NCBI GenBank assembly: GCA_009602725.1
Contig: WELB01000027.1
Coordinates: forward strand, 777,106-819,773
From: Spirogloea muscicola
Lineage: Eukaryota > Streptophyta > Zygnematophyceae > Spirogloeales > Spirogloeaceae
Length of the DNA stretch: 42,668 nucleotides
Direction: 5' to 3'
Positions within the stretch are counted from its first letter, which is position 1; every line of letters begins with the position of its first letter. Below, piece after piece: positions 7,563 through 33,700 of the stretch. A model generated the notes under the pieces. It searched no databases. It was not told the DNA's origin and saw only the letters and a program-made list of their open reading frames with translations. Made by a program: the position numbers and the translations under genes.

Positions 7563-8222
7563 GGGCCGCGCAAACTGCTGACCTGCGCGTCCGAGCGCGC
7601 TTCGCGGCCGTGGTCGCCAAGGCCGCCTACACCACCGCCGTGCTGCGGCTCCCCGAGGCCGACCTGCGCGGGCGCGCGAGACTCCAATCGGCCTCCTCCC
7701 CGGGGGCAGCGGCGTGGCTTCAGGCCCTCCCCATCAATGACGCCCTCACTCTCCCCGATGAGGTCTTTCGCACTGCCGTCCACCGGCTCCTGGGACTGCC
7801 GCCTCCATGTCTCCAGGGCGTGCGTCAGTGTGTATGCGGCGAGCGAGGGGCCGAGTCTGGGGAACTGGCCGCTCATGTTCTGCGCTGCGCCCACGGCCGC
7901 GAGCGGACAGCGGCCCACGACCGCCTCCGCGATGCGATGTACGGCATCCTGGTGGAGGCTGGCTTCTCGGTGTCAGCGGAGCACTCCGGCGTCATGCCGC
8001 TTCAGGAAAGGGCCGACGGTCTCCGCGCCCGTTGCGTAGACCTGGTGGCCACCCCACAGGTCGGCGGGCCACGTCTTCTCCTGGACGTCATGACCACCGA
8101 CGCATACGACCGCTCACACCCAGCCCAATGTGCCACCAAGGCTGGGTATGCGGTCGCCTGCGCCGCTCGGGCTAAAGAGCTCAAGTACGCCGACCATCCG
8201 CGGGAAGAGTTCTTCCCATTGG
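7563..8222 (+). mobile_element. LINE C-terminal fragment with CCHC and endonuclease-like domain (subfamily 2)
   Basis: An open frame encodes the end of a non-LTR retrotransposon polyprotein. In order: a region before the finger (PGAAAWLQALPINDALTLPD, then FRTAVHRLLGLPPP), a CCHC cluster (CVCGERG, then HVLRCAHG), and a restriction-enzyme-like endonuclease signature (CVDLVATPQVGGPRLLLDVM, matching the R..D....D pattern of R2-like and Dualen-like elements), then KYADHPREEFFPLA. The reverse transcriptase part is missing, so the copy is 5'-truncated. It stops abruptly at 8222, where related copies continue VDVHGALGS, because other repeat sequence follows. Family placement rests on remembered domain patterns. 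Confidence 0.7.
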
Positions 8223-9050
8223 CATGAAGCTCATACCCAAATGTCCCAGTTGGTCAGAATGCAAGCCTTGGAACTGCCCGGTATCCGGCAAGTTTTAGAC
8301 TTCAAGGATAACGCAGATGATATTGTACCTGCTCGTAGCTCCACTCAGAAAGCTGCTACAAATGCCGACATTTCTATCAGAAGTTCAGTATATACCAATA
8401 TCCATTATGCTTAAAGCAGGTGCCTCAAGCATTCTGGTAAGCAGCATATTGGTGGATGCTGAACTTTTGTTAGGTGTATCGGCGCTAGTAGCAACTTTCT
8501 TAGTGGAGCTACCAGCAGGTAAAACACTATCTGCATTATATTTTATCCTAAAACTGGCCGGATATCGGGCATTTCCAAGGTGTGACCAACTTCCACCTCT
8601 CCTCTCTCCAAAGGGTTGCGAGATGAAGAGCTTGGCAAAACTGCAGCATGAGCAATAAGGTTGGCACCATGAGCATACCCGTCATAGGTGTCCATCTCAT
8701 CTTCCTCATTTTAGATATCTTGCAGATTGTATTCCTCATCCTCCTGCAAACCATATGCTTTGGAAAGTGCACTTAAGACGACTTCAGTCTTGCTTAGCTG
8801 TTAAGCTAGAACAAGCTGCTCAGTCAATCTGCCTTGCCATCTGATCATACATACAGTCATGACTATCAGTCGACTTACTGGTAGATAACACCCTTTCCAA
8901 AGCTATCTTGTTTCTCAATGCTACAGGCATCTTGTCAGATAATCTCTTCCAACACTGGTGTTCTACATGCCTGGGTCTAGAACAGAATGCACACCTAGCA
9001 CCAGTGGTCTGATGCAAAGACGTGCAAACGTTTTTGAGATGGCCTTTTCA
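8223..9050 (-). mobile_element. Fossil of an LTR-type retroelement, Gag zinc-knuckle region
   Basis: On the minus strand, 8820-9017 encodes a CX2CX4HX4C zinc knuckle (CAFCSRPRHVEHQC), as found at the end of Gag in copia/gypsy-type elements. Sequence downstream of it towards 8430 has the acidic, low-complexity look of a Gag-Pol linker. I see no reverse transcriptase, integrase or terminal repeats. It is a broken fragment, apparently old, and abuts the LINE piece at 8222. The family call is weak. Confidence 0.4.
8246..8600. repeat. Fold-back inverted duplication, arms about 170 bp
   Basis: The left arm (about 8246-8420) is the diverged reverse complement of the right arm (about 8425-8600). For example the 33 bases at 8267-8299 match the complement of 8549-8581 at 30 positions, and GGTAGCTCCACT in the right arm mirrors CGTAGCTCCACT in the left. 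The turn lies near 8422. It duplicates part of the neighbouring retroelement fossil. Confidence 0.75.
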
Positions 9051-11164: not shown

Positions 11165-13440
11165 GTCAGCAGCTGCAAGTTCGAGTACTTTGCAGCTAGA
11201 ACGAGGAGAAGGAGCTCTTCAAGAAACAGGTGGTGGAGCTGCGGGCGCGGTTGCGATTGCGCGGGGAGGACTGGCAGGCAACAAGCACGAGGGCATAACG
11301 TGGTCGGCATTGCAACGATTGTGAAGGAAATGTGGTGCAATACTTGACACCCATTCCCGTGATCTCGACCTCCCCGCCCACAAAGTGCTCTTGCAGTTGG
11401 ACAGCTAGGGTGGCTCTCGTGCTCCTCCCCTAAGGCTTACTCTCTCTTCATCGACAAAGTATTGTCCGGCATGCTGGTGTCCACACTTACGAGCAGACTG
11501 TATGTAGGCTTGGACTCGATTCAGGACGACCGACCAGCCTCCTGACCCGCCTGAGCTGCTCCCACGCAGGTGATGGTGGCAACACAGCGGTGTGAGAAAT
11601 TTGCACGCGAGCAGCTGGAGGAGCTCCGCAATCAGTAGCCCTGTGACAGTGGACTACTTGCAAATTGATACACCTGAAAATTGGCCACATTGGCCGCTGG
11701 GTTCCGCATTGGGGACTGGCTGGGCCCGCTGTGGCATAGAGGCCAGACGACCTGACGTAAGGTGGCCGGGCGGCTGCGGCGATGGCATGAGTGGCGCGAC
11801 CTGGACGAGGCTGCAAGGGCAAGGGCTTTGGATGGCTTCGGGCTCAAATCCTGGAGCATGGCATCCAGGGGTATGCCATGCGTGCTGTCGGCAGTGATGC
11901 TACATTGCAAGGTGCGCCTGCAGCTACTGACGGTGAGAAGTTGAGCCTGTTGTGGCTGCTCTGCACTTACAATGCGGAGGCAGCGTACTTCGACGAGGGC
12001 GTCCGGAGCAGCCAGCGCAAGCTCCTCCTGTTGGCGATCGGCAAGCTCGTCCAGCCGGCATACACGGCCACGGTGGCTCACCACTGTACGGCTGCGCTTG
12101 TTGCTTTCAAGGAAGCAGTGGACTGGCAGCTCGCCACAGACAATGACGTGCCATTTGCCGAGGCTGCAAATGCCGCAATGAGGGCGGCGGTCGAACGCTT
12201 TGACGCCAAGATGGATGATGTGCATGTCAGCCAATTCGGCTGGGATACAGCAAAGTTGCGCAGGCGCCTCTTGCGTGACTTGCACGCGCATGTAACAGCC
12301 ATGCGCTGGCAGAGGCTCGCTGCCATCGCCAAGGAGGCCGAGGTGCGAGTGTTTGCGACTCACCATATCAGCTGGCAGCCAAGGGCTGGCATCCGACACC
12401 AAAAAGCATCATAGCATGTTGAGCGCTTCTGACAGAGATACTTGCATCGCCACAGGCCAACTTGGTGCAGGCGATCATGGACCCTTGCAGAGTGCTCCTC
12501 AAGGAGGGTACATCGAAGACACTGCGCAAGCTCCTGCAGCTAATTACGCAGACTGAGCACAAAATCTGCAGGCTATCTTTGTGGCCGCAGTTCGACTTAC
12601 AGGGTGCCTTGTGCTGGGGTGTGCCATGTGGCAGCAGCTCCTAGTCACATTTGGCACTCCGCACTCATGTACTTGCAGTTTCAGATTATCAAATTTAGCA
12701 GAAGCTCACGGTATGCTGGATCTGAAAGCCTGAACTGCTGACAACCTCAGTAAAACAGAGGCTGAGAAGAGTCTCCTCAAGGTGGTGAAGGGGTACACGT
12801 TGCAGAGGAGCGAGGCCGAGCAGATGATGGCAGCGCTGGCAGCTGCTGGGCGGGAGTGCATCAGGCAACGTGCACGGGAGGCAGCCAATGATGCCCTGAT
12901 CGCATGGTGCACAGGTGGGCAGTCTAGAGATCACGAAGACCCAGGGGCCCTGTTCTCATAGCGATTGGAGCTCGTCTGCTTTGACTGACGTACTGTGCCA
13001 TTTGACGCCTCTGTGTTAGATATCAGTTGGCATTTCGGTGGGATGGCAACCTTGTGCAGCCAGTCTGGCATGGCAACAGATACATTTGGTCGCTACAAGG
13101 AATGCGCGTGCAGCGGTGGACTGCCTGGACCTTGTTTGCTGGAGATGATGGAAATGCAGGGCAACAGGACACGAAGGCCTTGGCTACAGGATACTTGCAC
13201 AGCTTTGCAGTGCTAGTCAGGCTGGAGACAGTCAGAATCTGGTACATGTATCTGACAGTCAATGAATGCCCTCTTCAGGCTGTGCGTGTCCTGGCCGTGA
13301 CAGCAGCTGTGCATCTCAGTGGAGAGCAGCAGCATCCGGACACGATCGAGGCCACGCTGCTGTCGTAGCTTGCTCCCAATAGCGCCTTCGCCGGCGCCAC
13401 TGCGGACCCCTTGGCCTTGTTGTCGAGGGACAGGGTACGT
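11165..13440 (+). pseudogene. SEY1/RHD3 copy A, truncated and broken, introns kept
   Basis: Matches exons 9-16 of copy D (30778-35636) in order. Exon 9 remnant from 11165 (KELFKKQVVELRA) loses frame soon after. Exon 10 at 11571-11636 (VMVATQRCEKFAREQLEELR). The exon 11 acceptor CAG has become CAT near 11790. Exon 12 at about 11976-12343 is fully open and contains [13 protein letters not shown] and [10 protein letters not shown]. Exon 13 lies near 12452-12550, exon 14 near 12755-12912, exon 15 near 13017-13112 and exon 16 near 13279-13366. The GTPase domain and the membrane hairpin are absent, so no working protein is possible. Retained introns show copying at DNA level. It is more diverged from D than C is in exons 13-16, so probably the older duplicate. 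Confidence 0.85.
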
Positions 13441-22504: not shown

Positions 22505-22985
22505 AGTTCCGGTGCTTGCTACCTGCCGCCTCGCGGACCGCATGGCCGCCTCCTCCGCTGATTGGATAAGCACTTCTGAAATGAGAGGAGTCGGTGGCGA
22601 CAGCCTCTGGCTACGGTACGGGGTGTCGGGGTCGGTGCGACGCCCGAGCGGACGTTCAACACAATCTGGAGCCGAAAAGGAAATGGATAAGGGGTCGGAA
22701 AGAAACAGCACTTCCGGAGAGCCCGAACAGGATGGGCCTAGAAAATCCATCCATTGTATGTTCTCTTCTTTTTACTNGTGCAAGCCTGGCCAACAGGTCG
22801 AGCCAGTGGGATCCGAGAGCCCCATGCACGTCCACAGCCAGGGGGACGAACTCGTCGGCAGCCGGGTGGTCGGCGTGCTTGGCCGCCTTGCTGCGAGCGG
22901 CCTTTGCCGCAGCGTGGCCAGCCCGCGAGGCAGAAAGCCCTGGGTTGGAGCGGTCGACCACATCAGTGGTGGATCCTAGGAACAC
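22505..22985 (-). mobile_element. LINE fragments (subfamily 2), interrupted at an N
   Basis: The minus strand from 22960 reads GHAAAKAARSKAAKHADHPA then DEFVPLAVDVHGALGSHW and LDLLARLA, ending exactly at the N at 22777. A second small piece of the same region lies at about 22510-22565. Sequence between 22570 and 22776 is not recognised. Confidence 0.6.
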
Positions 22986-23290: not shown

Positions 23291-26200
23291 ATGGCGGCGG
23301 TGGAGCTAGTGCAGGTGATTGGCCGCAACGGGCGCCTGGACGACGCGGCGCTGGAGGCCTTCGTTAGCGCGGCGCGGCTGCCCGAGGCCGGCCTCGACTA
23401 CGCCGTTGTCGCCATCATGGGGCCCCTGAGCAGCGATACGCCGCGCGCGCCCGCCGCCGCCGCCGCCGCCGCCGGCTGACGCTGTGGCTGAGCTGCGGCG
23501 TCGCAGGCAAGAGCACGCTGCTCAACCATCTGTTCGGCAAGTCCTTCCGCGAGATGGACGCCTCCGCCGGCAGGCCGGCGCCGCGCTCTCCCTCTGCCCG
23601 CTGGCTTCCACACCTGGCTGGCATAGACAGCCGCTCTCGCCTTTACCACGAGCCGCATGCTTCTGCCCGCCCTCCTCCTCTTCTGTTTTCGCCAGTGCCC
23701 TTCTTGAGCCCCCATTACTGGACGCCACCGCCAGCTGATGGTGCGCCCGCGCGCCTCAAAAGCCCGACGACGCTGGGAGTATAGCTGGGCCTGGCGGCGG
23801 CAGTCTCGCCGCCCACGCTCGGGATTGTCATTGAAGGCACCGACAGCAGTGATCGTGGCGAGGTGCGCCGCTCCTGCAGGACAGGTGTCCAGCCTGCTGC
23901 TGTGCCGGCAACTGCCAGCAAGATCGCTGCCGTGCGGCTGCAGACCAAGGCTCCAGCCCTACACAATACCATTTGCTGCAGGGTGGTGGGCAGGCCGGAC
24001 CTGTCGCCTGGTCGGTGCCGCGAGTGCTATGGCCGGCTCCTTGCAGGACACGGTGTTCGAGAAGCAGAGCACGCGTTTGGCACTCCCAGTTTCTGACGTC
24101 GTCATTATCAACATGTTAGTGCCGCCAGCTCGTGTGGTTGAGATGTTCCACGCCGGACACTTCAGAGCTGTCTGGGCATCCGGTCTCCCAACACCGCGCT
24201 TGCTTGCGCTTCGTCGCAACCCGCTCTTTGCCCAGTGTCGTCCCAATGAGCTGACACTGCCATCCCATGCTGCGCCCGCTGCCGCGGCAAGGTGGTGCTT
24301 CAGAGTTGGATGCAAGCAGGCCTCCACCAAGCGCCTTCTCAAGACCATTTCCCAGGTGTGCGGTGCAGCGACCAATGCCGCACCCAGCTGCAAACCTCAC
24401 GACAGATGCCAGCGGCGCTGACGCTGACGCGGGCGCCGGCGTGCAGGTGATGCTGCGGCAACTCATGCCGCGCAAGACCACACTGCTGTTCGTCATCCGC
24501 GACAAGACGGAAGTGCGCCACCGGCCACCGCAGCCTCCGACATCTACTTACGCCCACCCTGCGGGTGCCGTTGCCAAGCACGCCTGTCGTGCGTGCTTGG
24601 CCCGTTTCTGACAACGCCTGCCAGCCTGTGCAGACGCCCTTGGAGATGCTGGACTTGATCCTGCGTGACGACATCTAGAAGTTCAGCCCCCAGAAGCCTC
24701 CTGGACACCTGTCATCATCTGCGCCGCTGCTTTTGCAAGCTGCCCGCGGCCGCGCTGCTCGCCCCAGTGGCTTTCCTCTCTGGCGTTGCCTGACTACCGG
24801 CTGCGATCCACCACCCCGCAGATCTGGGACAGCGTCGTCAAGCCCGAGCAGTATGCAGCGGTGCCGCCGAGCAACTTCTTCAATTTGAGCAGTCCCCTCA
24901 CGCGCCACTTCCGCCTGACTCTTTGCCTGCTGCCAGCCCGCGCAGAGCAGCCGAGGTTGACCTGCACTCCCGTCCTTGCCCGCAGGTGGAGGTGACGGCC
25001 TTGGCCAACTTCAAGCATGAAGAGGAGCTCTTTAAGGAGCAGGTGTAGGAGCTGCGGGCGTGGTTCAGGACTGCGACTGCCCCAGGAGGGCTGGCCGGAG
25101 ACCAGAAAAATGTAGTGGCGGGGGTCGGCATATGCAGAAACTGTGCAGAAAATGTGGTGTGACAATTGCAACAACCGCGACCTCGACATGCCCACCCACA
25201 AGGTGCACTTGCCGCTGGACAGCTAGGGTGGCGCTCGTCCTCCTCCCCTGAGGCCATGTCTCACTTCATCGACAAAGTACTGTCCGGCACGTGGATGTCC
25301 ACTACAAGCATAGTTAAGTAGGCTTGCACTGGACATCTAGGACGACAGGCCAGCCTCTTGACCGGCCTGAGCTGCTGCCACGCAGGTGATGGTGGCAACA
25401 GTGCGGTGTGAGGACATTGTATGCGAGCAGCTGCAGGAGCTCCGTAATCAGCAGGCCTGTGACTGTTTGTTGATGACTTGCGCACTCTTACCTGAAAAAT
25501 GGCCACATTGGCAGCTGGGTTTCGCTTCGGGGACTGGTGGGCCTGCTGTGGCACAGAGGTCACACAACTCAATGTAACGTGTCCGGGCGGCTGCGGTGAT
25601 GGCAGGAGTGGCGCGACCTGGACGAGGCCGCAAAGGCAAGGGCCGTGGATGGCTTCGGGCGCCAGGCGTCAGCCATGTTGGAGCACTGCCTCGAGGGTAC
25701 GCTTTCGCGTGCTGCCATCTACGATGCCCCATGGCAAGTTGCGGCTGCAGCTCTGACGCTGTTGAGCCGGTTCTTGCTGCTCTGCAGGTACGATGCAGAG
25801 GCAGCCTATCAATATGAGGAGGTCCGACGCAGGAAGCGCGAGCTTCTCGTGTCCGAAATCGGCAAGCTCAAGCAGCCGGCATACACGGCCATGGTGGCGC
25901 ACCACCGTACGGCTGTGCTTGTTGCTTCCAAGGAGGCATTGGACCGGCAGCTCGCTACAGAAAATGACGTGCCATTTGCCGAGGCTGCAAATACCGAGAC
26001 GAGGGCCGCGGTCGAACGCTTTGACGCCAAGATGGATGATGTGCATGTCAGCCTGTTGGACTGGGATTCAGCAAAGCCGCGCAGGGAGCTCCTGCGTGAC
26101 CTCGACGCGCATGTGACAGCCGTGCGCTCGCAGAGGCCCGCTTCCACCGCCAAGGAGGCCGAGGTGGGAGCATATGCCGCTCGTTACAGCGGCTGGCAGC

Positions 26201-26334
26201 CGCAAGCTGGCACCGAAAAGCAAAAGCACTAAGGCATGTTGGGCGCTTCTGACGGAAGCATCTGCTTTGCCACAGGCCAACCTGGTGCAGGCTATCTCGG
26301 GCCCCTGCAGAGAGCAACTTCAGGCGGGAGGATA
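23291..26334 (+). pseudogene. SEY1/RHD3 copy C, broken, introns kept
   Basis: Exon 1 23291-23435 (MAAVELVQVIGRNGRLDD, ending GPLSS) has lost its GT donor (GATACG). Exon 2 is 23507-23573, followed by the shared GC donor. Exon 3 near 23762-23860 has a stop where copy D has the tryptophan of GVWLGL. Exon 4 lacks one of two aspartates (QDTVFEKQS). Exon 5 has altered active residues (WCFRVGCKQA for [10 protein letters not shown]). Exon 6 is near 24448-24513, and exon 7 has a stop in DDI*K. The exon 8 donor is changed from GTGAGC to TTGAGC. Exon 9 has a stop. Exons 11 and 12 (about 25610-26152) are fully open. It ends inside exon 13 near 26334. Too many losses for function. Confidence 0.87.
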
Positions 26335-28099: not shown

Positions 28100-29060
28100 G
28101 ACAGGGCGCTCTTAGTAAAGAAGTGCTCGCCCATAGAGAAGAGGTGCTGGCAAAGCGAAGTGCGCGCCCATAGAGAAGAGAGCCGGCAAAGCCAGCCCAA
28201 AAAAGAATGGACAATGTCCAAAGCCAAAGAAAGACTACTCTACCAAACACGACAACGCATTGGGAAGCTCAGTACCCGCGAGTGAGCAACATCAGGTCGG
28301 AGTAGCTCGTGGCCGGGAAGAAAGTGCTCGCCCATTGAGGATAGGGGCTGAAAAAGCCAGCCCAAAAAAGAATGAAGAGAGAGAGGCACTCCGTTGAGAC
28401 CTGGAGGCGGCGGCCAGAAGAAAGTGCTCGCCCAGGATAGGGGCTGGAAAAGCCAGCCCAAGAAAGAATGAACAGAGCACGTCCTGCGCGCCCGTGGACT
28501 GCGTCTGTCTTATTAGTACCTTGTGTCAGCTATAGAAACTTAAATGAGCAGAGGGGAGCTGCTGCAAGCCAGAAAGAGAAGAAGGCGCGCAGTCCGCATG
28601 AATTGAAAGGGCGGCCATCAAACCAACACAATATTCTAAACCCTTGCCGTGGTATGGAAGAGCTTAAAATTAAGAAGAAAGTGCTCGCCCATCGAGGATA
28701 GGGGCTGGAAAAACAAGCACACAAAGAAACAAAGCAGCTACGGATCACTCAGTAACCCCTGCTAAGCAGCCACCAGTCAATCTGGCCGCACTTCTTCTGC
28801 TAAGCAGCCCCAGGTCAGAGACGCTAGGCTCCTGGAAGTAGAAGAAAGTGCTCGCCCCTTGAGGATAGGGGTTGGAAAAGACAGCCCAAAAAAGAATGAA
28901 CAGAGTACGAGAAGGGTGGCCAAGGGAAGCGCTAAGGAAAACAAGCGCACAAAGAAAGAAAGCAGCTACGAATCACTCAGTAACCCCTGCTAAGAGAGAA
29001 AGCGCGGCCAGATTGACTGGTGGCTGGGAAAGGCCAGCCCAAAAGAATGGACAAGGTCTG
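28100..29060. repeat. Cluster of short hairpin repeats (about 48 bp unit)
   Basis: Copies, mostly on the minus strand, at about 28110-28205 (two, in tandem), 28318-28378, 28418-28473, 28677-28730, 28845-28905 and 28990-29056. In plus orientation of the window each reads GAAAGTGCTCGCCC, a variable ATTGAGGATA, GGGGCTGGAAAAGCCAGCCC and AAAAAAGAATG. CTGG and CCAG arms give a 7-bp stem with a 4-5 base loop. Further copies lie at about 10118, 11105, 19675, 21956, 22008, 26940, 27150, 27595, 29372, 29645 and 29948. Confidence 0.75.
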
Positions 29061-29110
29061 AGGGAGCTTGAGTGCGAACGACTAGGACTAAGACATCAGC
29101 CAGGGAACGC
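28740..29110 (-). mobile_element. LINE 3' ends, nested, reverse orientation
   Basis: CAGTAACCCCTGCTAAG at 28751 and 28979 is the complement of the LSRGY-stop end of a third LINE variant. CAGATCAGAGATGCTAGGCT or close variants (EPSISDLRLL on the minus strand) occur near 28812, 29608 and 30068. Hairpin-repeat copies lie between them. Confidence 0.6.
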
Positions 29111-29590
29111 TCAGTAACCTCTAGACAGGAGATGCAGATCCGAGTAGCTAGCTGGTGGAAAGACGTCGCCCTGACGGAAGCGGGAGGCCGCCGCCATAGC
29201 TCGGCCTGCGCGCAAGTGAACCGCGAAGGCGAGGGACCGCTGCATCGAGACGGCCAAACGCATACGGAACACCTGAGCGAGGGACCCGGCTACGTTGAAG
29301 CTGGGCTGCTCGCCCTGCTGCCCGAGGCGGCGGGCCGCTGCACGCCGCGCCAGGCGGTGGAGCAAGTCAAGAAGAAGTGGCACTCCCAATGGGGGCAAGG
29401 GCTGCGAAAAGCCAGCCCAGTCAAGCCGTTTGGAGCCAAAGGCTCCGTGCACGTCCACTGCCAGTGGAACGAACTCGTCGCCCACCGGGTGGTCAGAGTA
29501 CTTCCGTTCCTTCTCGCCCGCCGCTTGGCCGACTGCGTAGCCCGCCTCCTCCGACGAGCGTTTTGCACTGTTGGAAGCAAAGCTGTCAGC
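29111..29590 (-). mobile_element. LINE C-terminal coding piece (subfamily 2)
   Basis: The minus strand reads DEFVPLAVDVHGAFGSKRLD, a short insertion, DLLHRLARRAAARRL, AGSLAQVFRMRLAVSMQRSL, FAVHLRAGRAMAAASRFRQG and DVFPPASYSDLHLLSRGY, ending TGA at 29111-29113. Upstream, another frame carries QSAKRRARRNGS up to about 29590. It is the best preserved C-terminus of this subfamily here. Confidence 0.75.
29372..29425 (-). mobile_element. 54-bp in-frame hairpin insertion with 6-bp direct repeats
   Basis: Between RLD and DLL of the LINE frame there are 18 extra codons (LD-WAGFSQPLPPLG-VPLL) absent from the copy at 22777-22960. GTCAAG occurs at 29366-29371 and again at 29420-29425. The inserted sequence contains GGGCTGGC and GCAGCCC, matching the short hairpin repeat; a near-identical unit lies at about 27592-27640. 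Confidence 0.7.
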
Positions 29591-29950
29591 TGCCTGCTAA
29601 GCAGCCGCAGATCAGAGATGCTAGGCTCCTGGCTTTGAACATTGTCCATTCTTTTTGGGTTGGCTTTGCCAGCCCCTCTTCTCAATGGGCGAGCACCTTC
29701 TCCTGGGAGAGAGTCCCCTGGCCAGAGCCAGAGGCAGCAGCGAGGGCTCTGCCGGCCGCCCGCAGGTGCAGCGCGCGGGACACCGACCGCTGCAGCAGAC
29801 GGCCAAGCGCATCCGGTACACCTGCGCTAGCGACCCGGCTGCAGGAAAGTCCACCGGCTCCCCATGGAAGCGACGGGCGATGGCGTGGCGGGCGAGCTGG
29901 GTGAGCAACTCGAGCCACCGAGCGCCCAACGCCCATGCGTGTCAATCGCC
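29591..29950 (-). mobile_element. LINE C-terminal pieces (subfamilies 2 and 3)
   Basis: The minus strand 29929-29690 reads GARWLELLTQLARHAIARRF, then FPAAGSLAQVYRMRLAV and, after a frame change, HLRAAGRALAAASGSGQG. At 29590-29640 a fragment of the EPSISDLRLLS end is joined. A hairpin-repeat copy (GGGTTGGCTTTGCCAGCCCC) sits between them at 29656-29690. Confidence 0.6.
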
Positions 29951-30777: not shown

Positions 30778-33700
30778 GCAAGAGCACGCTGCTCAACCAC
30801 CTGTTTGGCACGTCCTTCCGCGAGATGGACGCCTTCGCCGGCAGGCCAGCGCCGCGCCCCCCACCGCTGCTCCGCGCTGGCCGGGTCCGGCCATGGAGCC
30901 GGCTGGCCCGCAGCTGACGGCGCGGCGGCCGGCGTGGCCCCGTGGGCGAGCAGGAGCCAGACGACGCAGGGCGTGTGGCTGGGCCTGGCGGCGGGCATCC
31001 GGCCGCCCACGCTCGTGTGCGACATCGAGGGCACCGACGGCCGCGAGCGCGGCGAGGTGAGCGGCAGCTCGGCCTGCTGTGCAGCGGCGGAGCGAGGGCT
31101 GCTGCAGATGGCGAGCCGGTCCTGATGTGCGCCTTTTGCCGCGGCTGTCGATGGGGCCGGCTGCTTGCAGGACGACACGGCGTTCGAGAAGCAGAGCGCG
31201 CTGTTTGCGCTCGCCGTCTCTGACATTGTCATCGTCAACATGTGAGTGCTGCCTGCCACCGTCGTTCACTTTCTACACACTGGACTCTTCACTGCTTCTG
31301 GATATTTGCTTAGTTTGAGCTCACGCTCGCTGGGTCTCAGCCAGCACCCATAATCCATGTTGTTAAAGTGAGCTGACGCAGGCAATTGCCACTGTCGCGA
31401 CTGCTCCTGCTGCTGTGGCAAGGTGGTGCCACGACATTGGGCGCGAGCAGGCCGCCAACAAGCCCCTCCTTAAGACCGTCTTCCAGGTGCGCGGTGCAGC
31501 AATTGAGTGCCGCACTCAGCTGCCACATTTACCACAGACCCCAGCAGCGTTGACGCTGTTTCTGGAGCTGGCGAGCAGGTGATGCTGCGCCTCTTCACGC
31601 CGCGCAAGACCACGTTGCTCTTCGTCATCCGCGACAAGACAAAAGTGCGCCACTTGCAATGCCGTTGCCAACGTGTTCTCAAGCCTGTCCTGCGGTGCAA
31701 TGCTGCCCAGTTGTGCATGCTTGGCCTGTGGCTGAGCCACCAACCAGCCCTGCCGCTGGTGGTGCAGACGCCGATGGAAACGCTGGAGCCAATCCTGCGC
31801 GAGGATATCCAGAAGGTCAGCCTCCGGCCGCCACCTGAGCAAATGTCATTGGCTTCCGCTGGCCAATGGCTGACTGTGCCACTGGCTGACTAGCGCTGCT
31901 CGTAACTCGTGGATCCCCCGTGGCACAGCTCAACGCCGCCACAACTGTTTATGCTGCAGATATGGGACAACATTGCCAAGCCTTCACAATATGCCGCGGT
32001 GCCGCTCAGCGACTTCTTCAACGTGAGCAGTCCCCCACAAGTGTTGCTCAGGAAACCCTTTGCCTGCTGCCACCTTATACACGGCTGACCTTCGCTTCTG
32101 CCCTCGAATGCAGGTGGAGGTGACGGCGCTGGCCAACTTCGAGGAAAAGGAGGAGCTCTTCAAGGCGCAGGTCATGGAGCTGCGAGACCGGTTCATGAAT
32201 TCGGTCGTGCCAGGGGGGCTGGCGGGCGACCGGCGCGGCGTCGTGCCGGCATCGGCATTCTCACTGAGCGCGCAGGAGATGTGGCGCATCATTCGGGAAA
32301 ACCGTGACCTTGACCTGCCCGCTCACAAGGTGCACTTGCTGGCTGGACAGCTAAGGTGGCCCTTGTCCTTGGAGCATGAATGTAGGACAACAGACCGGAC
32401 TCTCGAATGATGTGAGCTGCTGCTATGCAGGTGATGGTAGCAACGGTGCGGTGTGAGGATATTGCACGCGAGCAGCTGCAGGGACTCCGTAATCAGCAGG
32501 TCTGTGACTGCCAAGAGTTTGCTCTTTGATTGATAAGAAATTGCTTCAACGGCCGCTGACTTTCGTTCAACAAACTGCTGGGTCTGCTATGCATGGAGGT
32601 CGCACTACCTCGAGTCTGCAATCACACACTTCGGGCGGCTGCGGTGCTGGCAGGAGTGGCGCGACCTGGATGAGGCCGTGACGGCGAGGGCCGTGGATGG
32701 CTTCGGGCGCCAAGCGTCCGTGATGTTGGAGCACTGCATCGAAGGGTACGCTTTTGCGTGCTGCCATCTGCGATGCTCCATCAATAGTTGCGGCTGCGGC
32801 TCTGACGCTAAGGAGTCAAGCCTGCTCTTGCTGCTCTGCAGATACGATGCAGAGGCAGCCTACTTTGATGAGGGAGTCCGAAGCAGCAAGCGCGAGCTTC
32901 TCCTGTCAGAGATTGGCAAGCTCATGCAGCCCGCATACACGGCCACGGTGGCGCACCACCGTACAGCTGCGCTTATTTTCTTCAAGGAAGCATTGGACCG
33001 GCGGCTCGCTGCGGAAAGCGACGTGCCATTTGCCGAGGCTGCAAATGCCACGATGAGGGCGGCGGTCGAAGAATTTGACGCCAAGCTGGATGATGTGCAT
33101 GTCAGCATATTGGGTTGGGATACAGCAAAGCCGCGCGAGAAGCTCTTACGCGACCTGGAGGCGCATGTTGCAACCCTCCGGTTGCAAAGGCTCGCCGCCA
33201 TCACCAAGGAGGCTGAGGTGGGAGTGCTTGCAGCGCGCCGCAACAGCTGGCAGCTGAAGGCTGGCACCAGGATGGAGAGCCCTGATTCGTGAGGCGCGTC
33301 TGACAGACCAGTTGGCTACTGCCACAGGTCAACCTGGAGCGTGCGATCTTGGACCCCGCTGGAACGCTGCTCGATGCTGGGACGTCCGACACATGGCCTG
33401 CCCTGCGCGAGCTCCTGTCACGAGAGACGCAGAGTGAGCATTGCTCTAGCAGGCAGTCATTTTTGGCAACAGCTTCAACTTGTGTGGCTATTGCTCGAGT
33501 GTACCATGTGGCAGCTCTCTTGCAAGCTCGCACTGTCCTTTGAAGTGCGTGCATCTTCATAGCTTTACAGCTCAGCTCAGCATATACATCACTTACATAA
33601 GTTTGAAGCTCAAAGCCTGACTGAAGACGACCTTGGCGAGCCAGTTGCCGAGAGGAGTCTGGTGAAGTCAGTGGAGGGGTACAAGGTGGAGGAGGGCGAG

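Follow-up and report, generated by a model that had tools for sequence, protein, structure and literature searches.

The insertion and its host reading frame

The window, by which we mean the whole 42,668-nt stretch of Spirogloea muscicola DNA analysed here, carries on its minus strand the C-terminal reading frame of a LINE fragment (29114..29485), which ends in ..LLSRGY followed by a stop codon at 29111-29113. Compared with the C-terminal end of L171, a full-length LINE described below, the frame is 54% identical and contains 18 extra codons. A sequence-only reading of the window, which did not mention that the frame lies on the minus strand, had placed copies of GTCAAG at 29366-29371 and 29420-29425, bracketing a 54-base, stop-free, in-frame step. 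Both positions were exactly right, and the added 18 codons correspond to a gap of exactly 18 residues in BLASTP against the full-length L171. The direct repeat, described there as 6 bp, is in fact the 7-bp AGTCAAG (29365..29371 and 29419..29425). The 54-bp step thus consists of a 47-bp insert (29372..29418, minus strand in the LINE sense) and a 7-bp target-site duplication; a 48 + 6 split is the alternative, as the first A of the right AGTCAAG is ambiguous and may belong to the insert.

The insert comprises the last 47 nt of the 3′UTR of a sibling LINE, with the 5′ side cut off. Its part at 29399..29418 (minus strand), GGGCTG...CAGCCC, is the recurrent 3′UTR stem of these LINEs. The step had been called a hairpin unit, and a hairpin can indeed be drawn by pairing GGGCTG with CAGCCC; its folding is nevertheless unremarkable, the 60-nt RNA having a fold energy z-score of -0.50, with 65 of 200 shuffled sequences folding equally well. 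By reading, the 47 bp, whose ends are AAGAAG and CAGCCC, have no terminal inverted repeats. By reading, a GT..AG pair could also be marked out on the plus strand, which is antisense to the LINE frame; the LINE strand has no such pair.

The host LINE is itself a 5′-truncated fragment (28995..29593, minus strand), in which the 54-bp step adds to about 545 bp of native sequence; a 3′ hairpin belonging to this copy lies near 29022-29039. It is flanked by an 8-bp target-site duplication, CTGCTAAG, at 28987..28994 and 29594..29601. When the host LINE was removed in silico, the joined flanks matched L171 across the junction at 68 of 73 bases, identifying an outer L171-like LINE copy as its receiver, with the 3′ part at 28841..28986 and the upstream (LINE-sense) remainder at 29602..29632, both on the minus strand. 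Three layers are therefore present in the window, the 47-bp end within the host LINE within the L171-like LINE, and the host copy, being 5′-truncated and bordered by a duplication, repeats the same event one level up. The hairpins of the insert, the host LINE end and the outer LINE end, at least those traced, are LINE 3′ ends.

Other repeated sequences were observed in the window. Another C-terminal fragment of an L171-type LINE lies at 7610-8227, and its 150 relatives scored genome-wide showed 83-100% identity, several of them lying in frames some 1,330 codons long that may include gaps. Three reading frames at 11791-12414, 25645-26232 and 32678-33292 are similar by eye, and the one at 11791-12414 matched Sey1_3HB in Pfam (E 7.5e-20); parts of a Sey1/RHD3-like gene therefore seem to occur more than once here.

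Filled and empty sites among sister LINEs

The genome (153.1 Mb in 471 contigs) was searched with the 201 bp around the insert, and 40 of the 1,427 candidate places were scored. The step was absent from 37 of them and present in one, the window itself; the other two were uninformative, one (C270) because the left half alone matched and the other (C117) because it has a different copy of this LINE end, a longer one, close by. Thirty of the empty places gave split matches whose two parts overlapped, in 30 of 30 cases, by exactly 7 bp, as a single AGTCAAG without an insert would give. The remaining seven matched as single alignments of 147-148 bases to the 201-base query, lacking the step. The window's own flanks, once joined, were 98-99% identical to all six empty sites fetched. 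The sequence-only reading had proposed just such a comparison, naming the 54 bases in all sister LINEs as the outcome that would make them ancestral; that outcome did not occur, and the sister copy it cited at 22777-22960, a diverged one compared by eye, does lack the step. With 37 of the 40 scored places empty, the 54-base step is an insertion into the window copy and not a deletion elsewhere; both the insertion and its target-site duplication are thus confirmed.

Two further copies of the same LINE end were seen near copies of the host LINE. At L002:1562-1675, the longer copy noted above (C117), 114 nt of the LINE end abut the same host LINE within a few bases of the point used in the window, with GGTGAAG on both sides and different sequence beyond. 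At L006:1374-1422, CTGTTGGGAG was seen by eye to flank another very short copy, which lies beside the 5′ junction of a different copy of the host LINE.

The parent LINE family

With up to 3 mismatches allowed, the 47-mer occurred 2,452 times in the genome (1,219 + 1,233), far beyond chance given that the reversed-pattern control gave 0 occurrences; the exact 48-mer, consisting of the 47-mer and the following A, occurred 507 times. At locus L104, the identical 47 nt close a LINE 3′UTR of about 145 nt, in the order of a frame ending in ..LLTRTY, a stop codon, the approximately 145 nt, the hairpin and CACTTCTT. The C-terminal frame of the 47-mer subfamily, taken from L010, was 75% identical to the C-terminus of L171.

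L171, which belongs to a sibling subfamily of the 47-mer family and not to the exact subfamily, was used as the full-length example. L175 (G000:C18:9800-13900), chosen as the body of the exact subfamily, is mostly N (an assembly gap), and its open frames run through N and provide no evidence. L171 contains a single ORF, an uninterrupted frame of 1,337 codons, and its 3′UTR has the same kind of 3′ hairpin and ends in CTTTCTTC. The product generated a hit on the reverse transcriptase domain RVT_1 in Pfam (58.7 bits; cut-off 29.6). Against solved structures, R2 proteins were the sole matches (three distinct sequences at E ≤0.01, best E 9.7e-07), so that the relationship to R2 is drawn from domain and structure-set matches rather than from a tree. 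No apurinic-endonuclease domain was found in L171 in Pfam. Near the C-terminus, the family alignment consensus contains a CxCG..H..C motif followed by the pattern RPD..DV..K..Y, which may represent a zinc knuckle and an endonuclease; this candidate C-terminal endonuclease region had no Pfam match, and the structure predicted for the 205-aa C-terminal fragment in the window (7610-8224) was of low confidence (pLDDT 55.1). At the N-terminus, zf-C2H2_4 scored below its cut-off (E 0.096; 13.9 bits against 27), with C..C..H..H/C patterns visible by eye. Specificity for the 28S rRNA gene was not seen, copies of the 47-mer family lying in many unrelated flanks. Close relatives of the LINE protein in eukprot showed 64-99% identity over 9-34% of the query; their gene names begin with SM000.., a prefix that stands for Spirogloea muscicola. 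A literature search, not aimed at proving absence, yielded no report of this LINE among the matches listed.

Variation of the copies at their 5′ side

Of the first 100 exact places (30 loci from the genome search and 70 fetched), 98 copies were read, L082 and L085 having been dropped by the offset filter. Apart from tail length, the copies start at the same point on the LINE 3′ side and break off anywhere on the 5′ side. Both junctions were usable in 66 copies; in the others the retrieved sequence ended too early or turned to N. In these 66, the 5′ breaks span 47-482 nt continuously, falling at 47-60 nt in 5 copies, 61-80 in 13, 81-100 in 11, 101-120 in 11, 121-200 in 15, 201-300 in 9 and beyond in 2. 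Copies shorter than 120 nt accounted for 40 of the 66. L101 retains 50 nt and is flanked by a GCTGCAG repeat. A break at exactly 47 nt was found in one of the 98 copies, giving no peak at the base of the hairpin of the kind that a pile-up by enzyme stopping would produce.

Flanking repeats were counted under a rule that anchored them at both junctions. Repeats of at least 6 bp were found in 23 of 66 copies, against a mean of 3.0 and a maximum of 8 over 200 rounds with shuffled partners; those of at least 7 bp were found in 18 (shuffled mean 0.97, maximum 4). Under the same rule, 43 of 66 copies had no repeat of at least 6 bp, so that many junctions would be aged, nested, or formed with short or no duplications.

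Some copies stop before the hairpin. Of 23 candidate places, 20 were read by eye for such stops. L157 and L167 retain 27 nt between two copies of ACAAGAAT and, sharing the same flanks, probably represent one event; L164 likewise retains 27 nt, bordered by a near-repeat of 17 bases. Most of the other places are point changes and not truncations. This series of breaks is the signature of 5′ truncation in target-primed reverse transcription (TPRT) and not of a two-ended unit.

A preferred insertion site in the 3′UTR of sibling LINEs

In the 3′UTR of the 47-mer family, the normal continuation of GTGAGCAGCTACAAAG is GGGCC, seen in 191 + 193 places (384 intact); in 16 + 13 others (29 interrupted), a purine run of the kind that characterises LINE tails comes next instead. 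Twenty-one of the interrupted sites were read (16 + 5), and all 21 proved to be LINE 3′ ends, from several subfamilies, inserted exactly there. At a control position in the same 3′UTR, a single one of the authors' choice, 1 + 0 interrupted places were found against 217 + 227 intact (1 vs 444). These LINEs thus re-insert at one site in the 3′UTR of their siblings. Insertions between GTGAGCAGCTACAAAG and GGGCC were noted at loci L063/L064, L079, L080, L110, L122, L128 and L176-L191. Four of them are the nearest parallels to the insert in the window: L181, a 38-nt insert with a duplication of GCTACAAAG; L183, an insert of about 18 nt from a sibling subfamily that stops before the hairpin; L185, with about 48 nt inserted and a repeat of no more than about 4 bp; and L128, an insert of 105 nt. 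Both junctions are visible in L181, L183 and L185.

Nine of the 66 junctions abut another LINE tail, an arrangement that could suggest head-to-tail template jumping. Two of the nine were examined further by eye (L128 and L064), and both were sibling insertions into the copy; on the basis of these two, template jumping was set aside.

Mechanism of the insertion

Taken together, we are highly confident that the 54-base step is a TPRT product of an R2-like LINE with extreme 5′ truncation, and that the open frame across it is coincidental. Counting against this reading are the 43 of 66 copies that lack a flanking repeat of at least 6 bp, and the fact that the full-length example comes from a sibling subfamily. 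The LINE enzyme would have nicked one strand of the older LINE copy at AGTCAAG, and the exposed 3′-OH end (..CAAG) may have base-paired with the CUU-rich tail at the 3′ end of an RNA from a sibling LINE. The last 47 nt alone, terminal hairpin included, would then have been copied, and joining of this short cDNA to the upper strand presumably left the 7-bp duplication. The three targets for which filled and empty forms are available, AGTCAAG, CTGCTAAG and CTACAAAG, all end in AAG, and the corresponding primer ends, ..CAAG in the window, ..TAAG at the host copy and ..CAAAG at the preferred site in the 3′UTR, can all pair with a CUU tail. The hairpin, whose folding energy is not special, may have a role in recognition of the tail.

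The frame would be kept by luck in about 1 insertion in 7, by our arithmetic of 1/3 for length and about 0.42 for 18 stop-free codons. Since none of the three LINE layers is shown to be a working gene, the open frame is most simply explained by chance, and it has no visible function because the host copy is itself a 5′-truncated fragment nested in a third LINE.

The sequence-only reading had taken the step as evidence that a short hairpin unit moves by itself. One very abundant short motif, found in many places and with target-site duplications, is what an independent short mobile element with two fixed ends (MITE-, SINE- or introner-like) would leave, but we consider such an element very improbable. 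The 47 bp are the terminus of a LINE 3′UTR, and one end alone is fixed; the opposite break is spread continuously from 47 to 482 nt and coincides with the 47-nt point in one of 98 copies. A mobile 54-base unit is also hard to reconcile with copies that stop inside the hairpin or before it and so lack it, and the 47 bp have no terminal inverted repeats. An introner was rejected as well, since by reading the GT..AG pair is confined to the plus strand, antisense to the LINE frame. As for ancestry of the 54 bases, with their loss from other copies by deletion between the direct repeats, the single AGTCAAG left behind by such a deletion would look no different; with 37 of the 40 scored sister places empty, and the insert derived from an unrelated part of a sibling LINE, the 3′UTR, that is present at thousands of other sites, its probability is next to nil.

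How the cDNA came to be so short bears on a different alternative. Either early stopping of the enzyme or a broken RNA template may have been responsible, and the same structures would result from both. The ultra-short copies could accordingly derive from short RNA pieces, namely broken or processed LINE 3′UTR ends used as templates in trans, which would make the tail fragment in effect a non-autonomous template. The abundance of copies below 120 nt (40 of 66 readable), reaching down to about 18 nt, is consistent with this, as is the proposal, in a study of R2 proteins, that templates may be 5′-truncated before cDNA synthesis (PMC11331408). However, no discrete RNA start point is apparent, and early stopping accounts for the copies equally; we regard short-RNA templates as possible, though not the probable source. 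TPRT by an R2-like LINE, with extreme 5′ truncation, is the reading retained below.

Relation to known LINEs and significance

The insert shares with the 5′-truncated TPRT insertions of human L1 and other LINEs a common 3′ end, a variable 5′ break, a target-site duplication and the condition of being dead on arrival. Simple 5′ truncations make up 1,094 of 2,068 human- or chimpanzee-specific L1 insertions, and short duplications accompany 5′-truncated L1 copies (PMC2912911). The present copies differ from L1 in having a CTT-rich tail in place of poly(A), and among those read it is common to find a length of just a few tens of nucleotides. R2-type LINEs, which have a C-terminal restriction-like endonuclease, resemble L171 in their single ORF and as its sole solved-structure matches, and the candidate C-terminal pattern CxCG..H..C / RPD..DV..K..Y in the family consensus may also be shared. 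The R2 protein is described as making 5′-truncated insertions (PMC11331408) and R2 as inserting into 28S rRNA genes (PMC13188248, PMC11331408), whereas the family described here is dispersed over many unrelated genomic sites. A stem-loop close to the 3′ end is also present in zebrafish ZfL2, a stringent-type LINE, where it is recognised by the LINE protein (PMC4176376). ZfL2 belongs to another clade, L2, and the stem-loop of the subfamilies here is known from sequence, with a fold energy not above that of shuffles.

The 47-bp insert is thus an ordinary, very short cut-off LINE copy, ordinary in kind. A misleading signal is thereby cleared: the recurring hairpin units appear to be 3′ termini of LINE copies stacked one inside another and not a new class of mobile element. 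The analysis also yielded a useful set of TPRT products, some as short as about 18 nt, whose filled and empty sites can be cleanly told apart, along with a recurrent insertion site in the 3′UTR of a sibling LINE. A broader proposal, that this R2-like LINE group routinely makes TPRT inserts of about 18-50 nt and steers itself to one preferred site in the 3′UTR of its siblings, the 3′ ends serving as both template and target, is speculative and in our judgement rather unlikely. If the short inserts arose from tail-only RNAs, the 3′UTR end would be a minimal non-autonomous template. The short inserts and the preferred site would make it possible to ask how little LINE RNA is needed for insertion, and whether such LINEs can use their own remnants as targets.
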